Positions 465-24,000 of a stretch of 39,290 nucleotides of DNA are shown here, in pieces. Source of the stretch: Alkalicoccus daliensis (GTDB lineage: Bacteria > Bacillota > Bacilli > Bacillales > Salisediminibacteriaceae). Below the pieces are notes generated by a model, which searched no databases, was not told the origin of the DNA, and saw nothing but the letters and a program-made list of their open reading frames with translations. The stretch spans positions 1 to 39,290 of the forward strand of contig NZ_FNIL01000019.1 in the NCBI RefSeq assembly GCF_900103955.1. The letters are read 5' to 3'. Positions within the stretch are counted from its first letter, which is position 1. The number at the start of each line of letters is the position of its first letter. A program made the position numbers and the translations under genes.

Positions 465-1603
465 TTTCCCTGCCTCCTGTGGACAATTGCTTCTTCAGCA
501 AGCAGTGAAATGACTGCGTCATCCATCGGCGGGTTATGCAGCCCCGCACGCACATCACGGTAGTAGCGCTGCAGTGGATTTTCTCTTGAAAGACTACGTG
601 CCCCGGTAATTCTCATCGCTAAATCCACGATATCTACTGCATTATTTGTCACGGTGTGCTTCGCTGCGGCAAGCTGGCCTTTCCAGAGCCGTTTTTCCTC
701 AAAAGAAGCTTCTTCAAATTTACGTGCAGTATCGTATAATACTGCTTCACTCTGCCGGTACAGCAGCTCCATCCTCCCTAGTTTTTCTCTTACGTGCGCC
801 GTATCAGAAATGGTTCCATTAAGACTGTTAGGGGAGTAACTCAAGCTGAAATCAAGCGCATATTCAAACGCCGCTTCTGCAATCCCCAGATAGCAGGCAG
901 GAATGTGCAGGAGCCAGCCATGGACTATTTCTTTTTCCGCTATCGTAAGCTCAATTTTGTGGTCAAGGGGGACCTTTACATCAGTTAACAATAAATCGTG
1001 GCTTCCTGTTCCTTTCATTGCGATAGAATCCCATGTTTCTTCTATTTCGATTCCTTCTGTATTCATCGGCACAAAAAACTGGGAGACTTCTTCTGTTTCT
1101 TCTACCGTGGCAGTTACAGCTGCAAAATCGAGTGCAGGAGCCATCGTCGTAAATGTTTTTCTGCCATTCAACACCCAAGCACCTCCGCTTTTTACTGCTG
1201 TTGTTTCAGGTTTGCCGCCTCTCGTAGGACTTCCCGTTGCTTTTTCTGTAGCAGCTGTATTAAACAATGAACCCTTCAGTGCCTGTGCACATAATTTTTC
1301 AAAATGGTCTCCTTTCCATAAGTCATAGGAGCCGGTGTGATAAATGAGGCCTACGTGCCAGCCGATCGATAACGCGGTCGCTCCATCTGCTTTTGCGAGC
1401 CGTTGCTGGAGGTGAAGCATCTCGTTTAAATCAGCTCCAAACCCTCCCAATGATTCCGGTACAGTCAGACCGGTGTAGCCGGCCTCCCTTAATAAATTCA
1501 AATTATCAAATGGGAACGTCCCGTTCTGATCGTGCCGCATTCCCGCTTCTTTTATTGTTGATTCATGCAGTTCCAGCCAATTGTATAAGTCTTTTATATT
1601 CAT
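461..1603 (-). CDS. Acyl-CoA dehydrogenase family flavoprotein (YdbM/DszC-like group)
   Basis: The 380-residue protein has the acyl-CoA dehydrogenase order. An alpha-helical N-terminal domain contains VPESLGGFGADLNEM (about 48-62). A beta middle domain contains the FAD-contacting run NTAATEKATGSPTRGG. A helical C-terminal domain ends with RYYRDVRAGLHNPPMDDAV. That C-terminal signature resembles the YdbM/DszC-type branch rather than classical fatty-acid dehydrogenases. I could not place the usual catalytic glutamate, so the substrate may not be an ordinary acyl-CoA. The start is chosen for GAGGTGAGG a few bases upstream of ATG 1603. It is a single-gene unit, divergent from the acetyltransferase gene. 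Family membership is secure; substrate is unknown. Confidence 0.85.
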   Translation of the reverse strand: MNIKDLYNWLELHESTIKEAGMRHDQNGTFPFDNLNLLREAGYTGLTVPESLGGFGADLNEMLHLQQRLAKADGATALSIGWHVGLIYHTGSYDLWKGDHFEKLCAQALKGSLFNTAATEKATGSPTRGGKPETTAVKSGGAWVLNGRKTFTTMAPALDFAAVTATVEETEEVSQFFVPMNTEGIEIEETWDSIAMKGTGSHDLLLTDVKVPLDHKIELTIAEKEIVHGWLLHIPACYLGIAEAAFEYALDFSLSYSPNSLNGTISDTAHVREKLGRMELLYRQSEAVLYDTARKFEEASFEEKRLWKGQLAAAKHTVTNNAVDIVDLAMRITGARSLSRENPLQRYYRDVRAGLHNPPMDDAVISLLAEEAIVHRRQGK

Positions 1604-19927: not shown

Positions 19928-19935
19928 CTAAAAAT

Positions 19936-19980
19936 AAATAACTGTCTTCAGCTTGTTGACTGAAGACAGTTATTTAAAAA
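19936..19980 (-). terminator. Terminator after the SinI-like gene
   Basis: A perfect 16-bp stem AAATAACTGTCTTCAG and its complement (19936-19951, 19960-19975) with an 8-nt loop. A/T runs on both sides allow bidirectional use. It ends the minus-strand transcript just after the SinI-like stop codon. Confidence 0.9.
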
Positions 19981-19983
19981 GCT

Positions 19984-20133
19984 TTATATGCATTTTTTCT
20001 TACCCTCCATCATTACACTTTCATTTGTTTGCTTCATCTGCAGAAATGATTTTACGTCCTCAGGGGAAAGCCCGATTTCTCTGGCTTCCTTCATCAATGA
20101 AGCCCAACCTTCTGCTTTAATTAAGTTCGCCAT
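19984..20133 (-). CDS. SinI-type antirepressor, small protein
   Basis: A 49-residue minus-strand gene that is easy to miss. Residues 8-32 (WASLMKEAREIGLSPEDVKS...) line up with the SinR-binding helices of B. subtilis SinI (WVELMVEAKEANISPEEIRK), keeping Trp, LM, EA, SPE and the final Leu. SinI proteins pair with the C-terminal helices of SinR and release matrix and biofilm genes from repression. A partner SinR is not in the window. The ATG at 20133 has GGGG eight bases upstream, set in an unusual leader: a c-di-GMP-I aptamer ends 40 bases before the start. A strong terminator follows. Family call is confident; the biological target is inferred. Confidence 0.82.
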   Translation of the reverse strand: MANLIKAEGWASLMKEAREIGLSPEDVKSFLQMKQTNESVMMEGKKKCI

Positions 20134-20141
20134 ATCCTATA

Positions 20142-20175
20142 CCCCACCCTATGTTAAGTATTTTTTCTACATAGG
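20142..20175 (-). promoter_or_regulatory. Expression-platform hairpin of the riboswitch
   Basis: On the minus strand CCTATGT (plus 20169-20175) pairs perfectly with ACATAGG (plus 20148-20154). Its 5' arm shares three bases with the 3' strand of aptamer helix P1 (plus 20173-20177). Its 3' arm runs into the ribosome site GGGTGGGG (plus 20142-20149). Formation of P1 and of this hairpin should therefore compete. There is no U-tract, so control would be at translation. The direction, probably ligand = ON, is inferred. Confidence 0.5.
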
Positions 20176-20259
20176 TAGCCCGGCTGTCTTAGAGTGATCC
20201 CCATCCCCTTAGATCCGTAGCTTTGCGTCACTGTTTTTCAACAGCTTTGCCTTTTACCT
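20173..20259 (-). promoter_or_regulatory. c-di-GMP-I (GEMM) riboswitch aptamer
   Basis: The minus strand reads AGGTAAAAGGCAAAGC, a TGTT-GAAA-AACA hairpin with a GNRA tetraloop, GTGACGCAAAGCTACGG, a CTAAGG...CTCTAAGA tetraloop-receptor region, then ACAGCCGGGCTACCT. These are the conserved blocks of the GEMM class I aptamer, in order and spacing. P1 is AGGTA/TACCT. By alignment to Vc2, the G before CAAA (G20), the A in GCAAAGC (A47) and the C in AGCCGGG (C92) are all present. G at position 20 favours c-di-GMP over 3',3'-cGAMP. It sits 40 nt upstream of the SinI-like start. No terminator is seen between it and the response regulator gene upstream. Confidence 0.9.
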
Positions 20260-20389
20260 GCAGACTTATATGTTTGCACTTCCTCCTTTCCTATTCATTG
20301 CCCTTCCCAAAACCCGCTGCGTCTGATTGATTAATACCTACTATACTTAGGAAAAGTTAAAATAAGGTTAAAAAATAAAAATATTCAAA

Positions 20390-21079: not shown

Positions 21080-24000
21080 AATACTCCATCCCCTTTTCCT
21101 CAGATTTTTTTACAGCTGGAAGCGTGAAAGAAAGCACAGTGCCGTTTCCTGGTATACTTTCTGCCCATATCGTCCCCTGATGGTGCTCAACTATTTCTTT
21201 CGTAATCGCAAGGCCCAGACCTGTTCCCTGTATTGCTTTTTTCTGTTTGTAATCAGTCACTTTATAGAACCTTTTGAAAATAGACTGGAGTTCTTCCGCT
21301 TTAATCCCTTCTCCATTATCATAAATACTGATTCTTAATTTCGTATCACCTTCAGCATCTGCAGGCAAGAGCGCTGCTTCGATTTGAATAAAAGGATCTT
21401 CTTTCACGAATTTACGCGCATTCCCGATTAAATTACTAAACACCTGAAGCAGTCTTTCTTTATCGATGCATACAAAGTAATCATCTTCATTCGTTATTCC
21501 TTTTAAAACAGGCGGCGGAAAATGAATGCCCGCCTCTTTCAGTTCCCAGGAAAAATAATGATACATTTCTTCAAGAAAAGCATGGATTTCAATTTCCTGC
21601 AGCATCATATTCATGCTGCCGGACTCCAGCTTCACCAGATCAAACAAATCAAAAATAAGTCTGTCGAGCAGATGAATTTTCTGCTGTACAATTTTTAAAT
21701 ACTTTTCATCGTTGGCATCAATGAAACCTTCCTTTACCGTCTGAATATAATTCTGCAGGAAAGTAACAGGAGTGCCAAGCTCGTGTGAAATATTGGAAAG
21801 CATTTCAATACGGGAAGCTTCCATTTCCGTCAGCTGCTCATTTTTATATTCGAGTTCGCTGTTTTTTGTTTCCAGCTCGCTCGTTCTGATTTCTACTTTC
21901 CTTTCGAGAATTTCATTTAAGCCCTCAAGTTCTATTCTCCTTTCTTCCAATTCGAAGACGGCCCGGGAAAGTTTAATATGTGTTTCCACCCGTATAAGCA
22001 GCTCTCTTCTGTCCACAGGCTTGACTAAATAGTCATTCGCGCCTGTCTCATAAGCTGCCAGCCTGTCTTCAATTAGTCCTCGGGCTGTCAGCATAAGTAT
22101 AGGAAGCTCTGTATAAGAATATGTTTTCCGCAGTTCTCTGCAGGCGTTATATCCGGAAATCTTAGGCATCATCACATCCATAATGATCAGGTCATAGTTT
22201 CCACTGCTTACTTTCTCCAGCACTTCGCTTCCATTTGATACTGCCGTCACTTCGTATCCTGCAAGACGCAGATAATTAGTAAGCACGCGCACATTCACTT
22301 CTTCATCATCCGCAATTAAAATTCTTCCCTGAAGCATCTCCCTGCTTACGGGAGCCTCCGGTACAGGAGCTGCATTCATATGTTCCTTTTCCAGCTGCAT
22401 GTTTTTTTGATGTGCCTCTTCAGCAACCGGGAAAGAAAAAGAAAAGGTGGATCCTTCTCCCAGTTGAGATTGCAGCGTAATTTCTCCTCCCTGCAGTTCA
22501 ATCAGGCGTTTTGATAAATGCAGCCCTATTCCCATTCCCTCTTTATACGAATGATCAGCGTTTGTTCCCCGCTGAAACGGATCGAAAATAAGCTGCAGTT
22601 CGTTTTCTGAAATGCCTATTCCTGTATCTTTCATAAATAACGTTACTTTTTCGGCGTCGGCTTTTCCTTCAATAATTATGCTGCCTTCTTTTGTGTACCT
22701 GACAGCATTAATCAATAAATTGTAAAGAATCTGCTGTATCCGGTGTTCGTCTGCATAAATTAAAGGCAGCTTTTTCACTTTATTAATAATTTCAAGAGTT
22801 GGCTTGTTGTTCATCACACGGATCATCTGCACTACCACATTCAGCGTTTCAACAATATCCACTTTACTGATGCGAAGATGGAAATCTTTATTTTCCAGTC
22901 GTGAAAAATCTGTAATATCTCCGATTAAAAGTGCCAGACGTTCTCCGCTTTTTACAATAAGATCTAAATTATACCTGGTCAATTTCGTTTGTTTTCCTGC
23001 AGCTCCTTCTTTTAAGGATTCTGCAATGCCGATCATTCCATTCAGCGGAGTCCGTAATTCGTGTGAAGTCATTGCAAGAAATTCATTTTTTAGTTCATCA
23101 GTGCGCTGGAGTGTTTCCAGCATTTCCTGCCGTGCTCTATCTTTTTCCTGGCGGATAATATTGATCTTGTTTGTTAAAGCAAAAGAAAACAGAATCAGTT
23201 CTACAGAGGTAAATATCTGCCAGGCGTATTTCGTAAAGAAAGAATATGGAACCACTCCCAGGTCGGTGGAAATAGAAATAATCACCCCAACGACGAAAAA
23301 CTGCCAGGCAAATATAAAGTAAATGGCAGGATGATAACCTTGACGGAATCGAATGACAGCTGTGGTCAACACTACAAACACGGTAAGTATACTTGCGACA
23401 ATGGATATTTCCAGCGCAATACTGTAGGAAAAAATCCATATAAGCAAAATAATTATATTTGCTGCGATAGCAATCTGAAAATAGCGGAGTGCTTTGGGAA
23501 TTAACTTTCGAAGCTCGAGAAAGTTACGGGCAAAAAGAAGCGCCATTATATTGGAAAGCGTCAGGAAAAAAATAATTGCCCGGTTATTCCACCAGACTGC
23601 CTCCGGCCAGATAAACTGATAGGCAAGTCCGGTAAAAGACAGAAACGTAAAAAGATTCACGACTATGAACATTACATAGTATAAATAGCTTGAATTTTTA
23701 AGGCTTAAATAGATAAAGAAATTGTATACAGCCATTACGCCAGCAAGTCCTGCAAGCAAGCCTAGAATCAAATAATCGGACTGTGTATTCTCGCTGTATA
23801 CAGTCTGATTACTGAAGGTAATAGGCAGCTGCATCGCTCCTTCTGTCTCGTGTCTCATATAATAAGTATAAATGCCTTCTCTTTCTGAAAAGTCATATCT
23901 AAAAACGAAAACTCTGTTATTCAGTTCCCGTTGATTGTAGGGGAATAAGTCTCCTGCTTCTCTCGTTTCCACATCATTATCCGGACCAACCTCATAAATC

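Follow-up and report, generated by a model that had tools for sequence, protein, structure and literature searches.

The analysed stretch of DNA, here called the window, comprises 39,290 nucleotides from Alkalicoccus daliensis. On its minus strand, an aptamer of the c-di-GMP-I (GEMM-I) riboswitch family precedes a short open reading frame (ORF) for a SinI-type antirepressor, which is followed directly by an intrinsic terminator (Table 1). In an Rfam covariance-model search of the whole window, this aptamer was the sole match at the gathering threshold (E 3.9e-13), its score being more than twice that required for membership in RF01051. Another match to RF01051, at 23612-23701 on the plus strand, was rejected as a further riboswitch, as its 18.2 bits are under the threshold. 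The G and the C that contact the ligand in aptamers of the c-di-GMP rather than the cGAMP type are both present in the window aptamer. When 49 SinI-linked aptamers were aligned, all were seen to have the G before CAAA (G18 of the alignment), and 47 the leading C of the 3' CC (C93); we take these positions to be G20 and C92 of Vc2, the ligand-contacting bases. Just upstream of the aptamer, a possible reading frame of 10 codons was seen within a purine-rich stretch (20266-20298, minus strand).

Table 1. Features of the aptamer-sinI locus in the window, with the genome's second pair in the last row (positions in L009)
Feature	Position	Strand	Basis
c-di-GMP-I (GEMM-I) riboswitch aptamer	20171..20261	-	RF01051 over the full model (1-87 of 87), 75.1 bits, gathering score 35
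P1 5' strand (CUGCA + GGUA)	20255..20263	-	P1-forced fold, partners 20167-20171 and 20174-20177
P1 3' strand (UACC, UA unpaired, UGUAG)	20167..20177	-	overlaps the anti-Shine-Dalgarno strand 20169-20175
Anti-Shine-Dalgarno strand CCUAUGU, common with P1	20169..20175	-	free fold, partner ACAUAGG 20148-20154
Masked region ACAUAGGGUGGGGU with the Shine-Dalgarno sequence	20141..20154	-	free fold
SinI-type antirepressor ORF, 49 codons, ATG start	19984..20133	-	PF08671, 41.1 bits (cut-off 31.4)
Intrinsic terminator	19935..19976	-	directly 3' of the ORF; 18-pair stem and U-run
Second GEMM-I/SinI-like pair, C12 (L009)	1321-1470 and 1501-1587	-	aptamer 43.2 bits, SinI 27.4 bits

The only Pfam family found in the 49-aa product at E values up to 1 is PF08671 (SinI), which spans residues 8-32; the domain is standalone, without an HTH domain. 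Alignment with SinI of B. subtilis (1b0n chain B) extends over residues 8-35 (E 0.0075). The stretch matched by PF08671 is the region of known SinI-SinR pairing. Judged from this domain, the protein may bind SinR and block its DNA binding. With NF046031, the NCBIfam equivalog model of B. subtilis-type SinI, 29.6 bits were obtained where the cut-off is 80, and the protein is thus not classed as a SinI equivalog in this narrow sense. The initial annotation, made from the letters of the DNA alone, had described a GEMM class I aptamer on the minus strand 40 nt before a 49-codon gene with a SinI-like product, and had proposed Infernal with RF01051 as a check. That search returned a strong full-length match, the SinI-like nature of the product is borne out by PF08671 and by the alignment, and the start does lie downstream of the aptamer; the distance from the last aptamer base to the ATG was measured as 37 nt instead of 40.

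The position of the terminator directly after the ORF makes sinI look like a one-gene transcript, although the scan of 2.2 kb by which it was found gave two sites where 1.6 are expected by chance. Upstream of the aptamer and sinI lie a response regulator and a large histidine kinase, with no sinR there, and downstream follow a PPDK regulator and an 885-aa ORF that is probably PPDK itself. The same surroundings are met elsewhere in the genus Alkalicoccus, in which SinI-domain matches were obtained in 6 of 8 genomes and 11 aptamer-SinI pairs were found. At all five other loci of the window type (L034, L035, L036, L037, and L047), a response regulator is located upstream and ppsR downstream; ppdK follows in four of them, the stretch of L035 ending too early to show it. 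Because the neighbours recur in five out of five cases, a chance pairing is very unlikely. An ORF not conserved in related genomes had been named in the initial annotation as an argument against a riboswitch in front of a SinI-type antirepressor. Together with the covariance-model match, the conservation of the ORF and its neighbours in the genus speaks for such an arrangement. In a second sinI group of the genus (L160, L162, and L169), the SinI-linked aptamers carry CACAAAATGACGG where CGCAAAGCYACGG is usual; they score 70-76 bits against RF01051.

In the genome from which the window was taken (3.78 Mb, 28 contigs), PF08671 exceeds its cut-off twice, in the window ORF and in a protein of 111 aa (C15) encoded away from it. 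The latter combines an HTH_3 domain (64.3 bits) with a C-terminal SinI domain (51.8 bits) and is therefore of the SinR type. A third, weaker SinI-like ORF, on C12, also encodes 49 aa and stays under the cut-off; a GEMM-I aptamer ends 30 nt before its start, which makes it the second pair of the genome. In the free fold of this second leader (L174), the anti-Shine-Dalgarno layout is different: CGAAUC, near the ribosome site, has GAUUCG of the 5' strand as its partner. A SinR-type gene was found beside neither sinI of this genome. Two of its four over-threshold GEMM-I aptamers stand before SinI-type ORFs. The highest-scoring one of the genome (86.8 bits; L006, 1501-1589, plus strand) is followed by an ORF at 1634-2506 (290 aa) without a Pfam match at E 0.01, and another (85.3 bits; L007 on C14, 1501-1584, plus strand) precedes a long ORF that appears FapA-like by eye, on a contig that also has three GGDEF matches. 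The genome has 16 GGDEF matches, and these proteins could supply the c-di-GMP ligand. The TasA family PF12389, looked for as a SinR target, gave no match in the genome.

The partner of the short protein could be one other than SinR, either another HTH protein or another carrier of a SinI domain, and paralogues could differ in their targets. That the window sinI has a response regulator and a histidine kinase as neighbours instead of sinR would agree with this, as would an 85-aa HTH protein without SinI domain that is encoded directly after the SinR-type gene (L001, 1762-2019, plus strand) and is a possible second repressor. On the other hand, the stretch that PF08671 matches is that of SinI-SinR pairing, and the C15 protein has the only other over-cut-off match in the genome. 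A different partner is considered the less likely reading, though by no means a remote one, and the C15 protein is preferred.

The pairing of aptamer and sinI was followed through the family in a sample of 35 genomes from 8 genera, in which the PF08671 profile search gave 118 matches. As standalone SinI ORFs were counted those in an open frame shorter than 105 aa, together with G028:C7 (a 54-aa ORF in a 140-aa frame), which amounts to 80 ORFs; the other 38 matches were set aside, the presence of an HTH domain being checked for the C15 protein only. An aptamer precedes 60 of the 80 ORFs. At least 52 of these follow from the matches listed, in which the aptamer lies 52-80 nt ahead of the SinI domain on the same strand, and 8 of the 28 ORFs without a listed aptamer proved to have one over threshold when the locus itself was checked. 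At the remaining 20 of the 80, no confident aptamer was found, one of them having a weak match of 24.4 bits. Standalone SinI ORFs are present in 29 of the 35 genomes, and each of these 29 has at least one aptamer-sinI pair; two or more pairs occur in 19 of the 35. GEMM-I is also present in the six genomes in which PF08671 gave no match. Matches to PF08671 in frames of 105-179 aa were regarded as SinR-type; 27 of the 29 pair-bearing genomes have one, the other two (G006 and G017) being 80 % and 76 % complete, respectively. For only 15 of the 52 listed pairs, the opposite strand carries a SinR-type match no more than 6 kb away. Fourteen of the 19 genomes with several pairs have a single SinR-type PF08671 match, which adds some weight to the idea that SinI paralogues have different targets.

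The order was sampled with 81 genomes drawn evenly from 47 families. Among the matches listed, a SinI domain occurs in at least 55 of the 81 and GEMM-I in at least 71. Aptamers were counted at the 80 listed SinI matches that lie in a frame shorter than 105 aa and outside the family of A. daliensis, using a covariance model built from the 49 family aptamers. Upstream on the same strand, an aptamer was detected at 41 of these 80 ORFs, in 35 of 47 genomes and in 26 families (counted by hand, among the matches listed), while a confident one was absent at 39. A sinR-like gene, defined as a tblastn match to the HTH part of the C15 protein at E up to 1e-5, a set that may include other HTH relatives, is convergent at 15 of the 41 pairs (at 3 also in tandem), in tandem only at 18, and not present in the stretch at 8.

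A scan for the joint pattern in a collection of named sequences gave at least 119 stretches, of which 80 were made into loci. These were chosen by a pattern that requires both aptamer and SinI, and they serve for verification, not for an estimate of frequency. The covariance model scored 78 of the 80 (the misses are L195 and L235), and in all 78, the SinI ORF comes after the aptamer. A sinR-like gene, by the same definition, lies within 2.5 kb at 55 of the 78, in tandem at 24 and convergent at 31; some of the 23 loci without it are near the end of their stretch. Genera represented include Neobacillus, Peribacillus, Lederbergia, Oceanobacillus, Virgibacillus, Thalassobacillus, Evansella, and Salipaludibacillus, and Ferroacidibacillus organovorans is also among the named loci. 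One record, titled Chryseobacterium sp. ISL-80 (L206), contains an aptamer-sinI locus that resembles those of Bacillus, next to a sinR-like gene convergent to it; filed under a Bacteroidota name, it is probably mislabelled. The proposal made in the initial annotation to look in other genomes for GEMM-I within 100 nt before SinI-domain ORFs thus had a positive outcome in the family, the order, and the named loci.

With an ORF this short and a search space this large, the riboswitch of another gene might stand beside a spurious ORF by chance. Recurrence on the same strand and at a similar distance in the family and the order, the conserved neighbours in the genus, and the terminator right after the ORF all argue against it. 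Chance neighbours were rejected on the recurrence and the conserved neighbourhood, and we give this explanation hardly any credence.

How the aptamer might act on sinI is suggested by the anatomy of the leader. P1 and the hairpin that masks the Shine-Dalgarno sequence use the same bases (Table 1), so the two states are mutually exclusive. At low c-di-GMP, CCUAUGU in the 3' strand of P1 would pair with ACAUAGG and mask the Shine-Dalgarno region. At high c-di-GMP, P1, stabilised by the ligand, would reclaim CCUAUGU, upon which the ribosome site would be exposed and SinI made. SinI would then bind and disable the SinR-type repressor, the C15 protein, and the targets of the latter would be derepressed. 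We consider it probable (about 0.7) that the GEMM-I riboswitch exerts translational ON control on a one-gene sinI mRNA and that the SinI produced disables the C15 protein. Aptamer, SinI domain, gene order, recurrence, linkers, and the possible pairings can be read from the sequences; that c-di-GMP binds, that it turns SinI synthesis ON, that it does so at translation, and that SinR is the partner are predictions from these. The initial annotation had given neither sign nor mechanism, and it is from the leader anatomy that we infer translational activation.

If the riboswitch serves sinI, translation is very likely the level of control. The linker between aptamer and start codon measures 19-48 nt in the family (69 nt in one case) and 15-38 nt in the 78 named loci. 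The longest U-run in it counts 0-5 residues in 59 of the 60 family loci, 7 in one, and 1-5 in the 78 named loci, and a terminator-like stem with U-tract was seen in none of these 60 and 78 linkers. Short linkers without a terminator indicate control at the ribosome site. Transcription termination or mRNA stability might be controlled instead of translation initiation, and there is a precedent in B. thuringiensis Bc1, which works via terminators next to a translational effect (PMC11218506). The short linkers (37 nt in the window) and their short U-runs, however, leave little room for a stem and U-tract before the ORF, and the terminator of the window locus was found after it. Terminator-type control of sinI was rejected on the linker lengths and U-runs, and termination and mRNA stability together are given about the odds of a long shot.

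Pairing of the anti-Shine-Dalgarno strand was compared in six loci of the genus, that of the window and the five others of its type. All 39 countable cells of CCUAUGU and ACAUAGG are paired; in one compensatory pair UA is replaced by CG, and a GU change occurs once. Displacing the partner by 1-3 columns reduces the paired share to 13-67 %. Of 500 shuffles, 36 scored at least as high in pairing and covariation as the real alignment, 316 had at least as many compensatory pairs, and every one had at least as many pair types. Against these shuffles, six such close sequences leave the hairpin unproven.

Folding of the 60 family pairs gave a mean unpaired probability of the Shine-Dalgarno sequence of 0.34 in the free fold versus 0.64 with P1 forced, a mean rise of 0.30. 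The family start codons were picked by a simple Shine-Dalgarno score, so that individual starts may be wrong, and the 60 include L127, the core of which was mis-set in the P1 analysis. With shuffled flanks (n = 300), the free value was 0.46 and the mean rise 0.16, and 47 % rose by more than 0.15. Since shuffled flanks also raise the accessibility, the effect of forcing P1 is partly generic and, as a test, weak when taken alone. At the window locus, the unpaired probability went only from 0.45 to 0.57.

A more specific signal was obtained by permutation, in which each locus keeps its own strands and the Shine-Dalgarno regions are permuted across loci. The family set, which includes related loci, gave an anti-Shine-Dalgarno energy of -11.03 kcal/mol; the permuted mean was -9.70 (sd 0.26), and none of the 300 permutations went as low. 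For 45 non-redundant loci from outside the family, the energy was -8.79 versus -7.67 (sd 0.29), and again 0 of 300 permutations were as low. Outside the family, the 3' strand alone gave -7.71 versus -6.70 (sd 0.27), while the 5' strand alone showed no excess in the 45 loci (-5.88 versus -5.58, sd 0.26). Within the family, the partner of the Shine-Dalgarno sequence is the 5' strand at some loci and the 3' strand at others, and neither dominates at several. As a whole, folding provides moderate support for the switch.

The sign of the switch could be the opposite one, in which case c-di-GMP would lower SinI synthesis and SinR would stay active. OFF-type c-di-GMP switches are on record in Bacillus, that of mcpA being called "off" and that of cbpA "on" (PMC7793685), and one of the 60 family loci lost more than 0.15 in accessibility of the Shine-Dalgarno sequence when P1 was forced. 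In 42 of the 60 (70 %), however, the accessibility rose by more than 0.15, as P1 competes with the masking pairing for one strand and thereby opens the site, and the locus-specific pairing was found again in the 45 outside loci via the 3' strand. In B. thuringiensis, raised levels of the cyclase CdgF led to increased expression of sinI, in line with an ON switch; as spo0A expression rose too, this effect may be indirect (PMC7793685). We regard the opposite sign as improbable and, given a riboswitch for sinI, the ON sign as likely.

In general, c-di-GMP acts towards sessile life. A rise in c-di-GMP that raises SinI and inhibits SinR fits this usual direction. To our knowledge, the SinI/SinR biofilm switch of B. 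subtilis has no direct c-di-GMP input, and no GEMM-I over the cut-off was found in the B. subtilis control genome. The A. daliensis genome resembles that of B. subtilis in having a standalone SinI domain and a SinR-type protein, and many relatives have a sinR-like neighbour, in some cases arranged in tandem as in B. subtilis. It differs from B. subtilis, in which sinI is set by Spo0A at the level of transcription (PMC8876208). Compared with GEMM-I riboswitches at large, the window element is a full-length aptamer over threshold like the others, but it precedes a gene for an antirepressor of about 50 aa instead of an enzyme, adhesin, or motility gene, and its leader has a short, probably translational platform. 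In the B. cereus group, cbpA and cap are presumably one gene. Bc2 of B. thuringiensis cbpA/cap is a c-di-GMP riboswitch of this group and serves a surface function, but it acts on a collagen adhesin and not on a regulator (PMC4933901, PMC7793685).

The pairing itself has been published before: an RNA-seq study of B. methanolicus MGA3 lists "(c-di-GMP)-sinI" (BMMGA3_08510) in its Table 4 among four c-di-GMP riboswitches (PMC4342826), contrary to the suggestion in the initial annotation that it could have gone unnoticed. This is the same combination of aptamer and sinI as in the window, present in the available part of that paper as a single annotated entry without mechanism, sign, or distribution (PMC4342826). 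No aptamer-sinI pairing was found in the available parts of PMC7793685, PMC8876208, PMC10240345, PMC5864091, and PMC11218506. Prevalence, use in multiple copies, sinR neighbourhood, and mechanism were not found in the open-access papers that the searches covered.

On a wider scale, we tentatively propose, with slightly less than even confidence, that a translational ON riboswitch for c-di-GMP on sinI is a common and perhaps ancestral wiring in Bacillales. In this wiring, several sinI paralogues per genome would often act jointly on one SinR, B. subtilis would be without the input, and an AND gate with the phosphorelay would exist where Spo0A boxes lie upstream. If this is true, the second messenger sets antirepressor synthesis directly at the RNA level in many relatives of Bacillus, often beside a sinR-like gene. 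Upon confirmation, one short leader would join two central biofilm circuits, and the model organism B. subtilis would be the exception in this respect. Spo0A boxes were searched for as exact words of what we take to be the box motif. There is none upstream of the window aptamer; within 200 nt upstream of the aptamer, such words occur at 14 of the 60 family loci, several of which look orthologous, so that they should not be counted as independent. Loci with a box include L129, L143, L157, L158, L165, L170, and L173.
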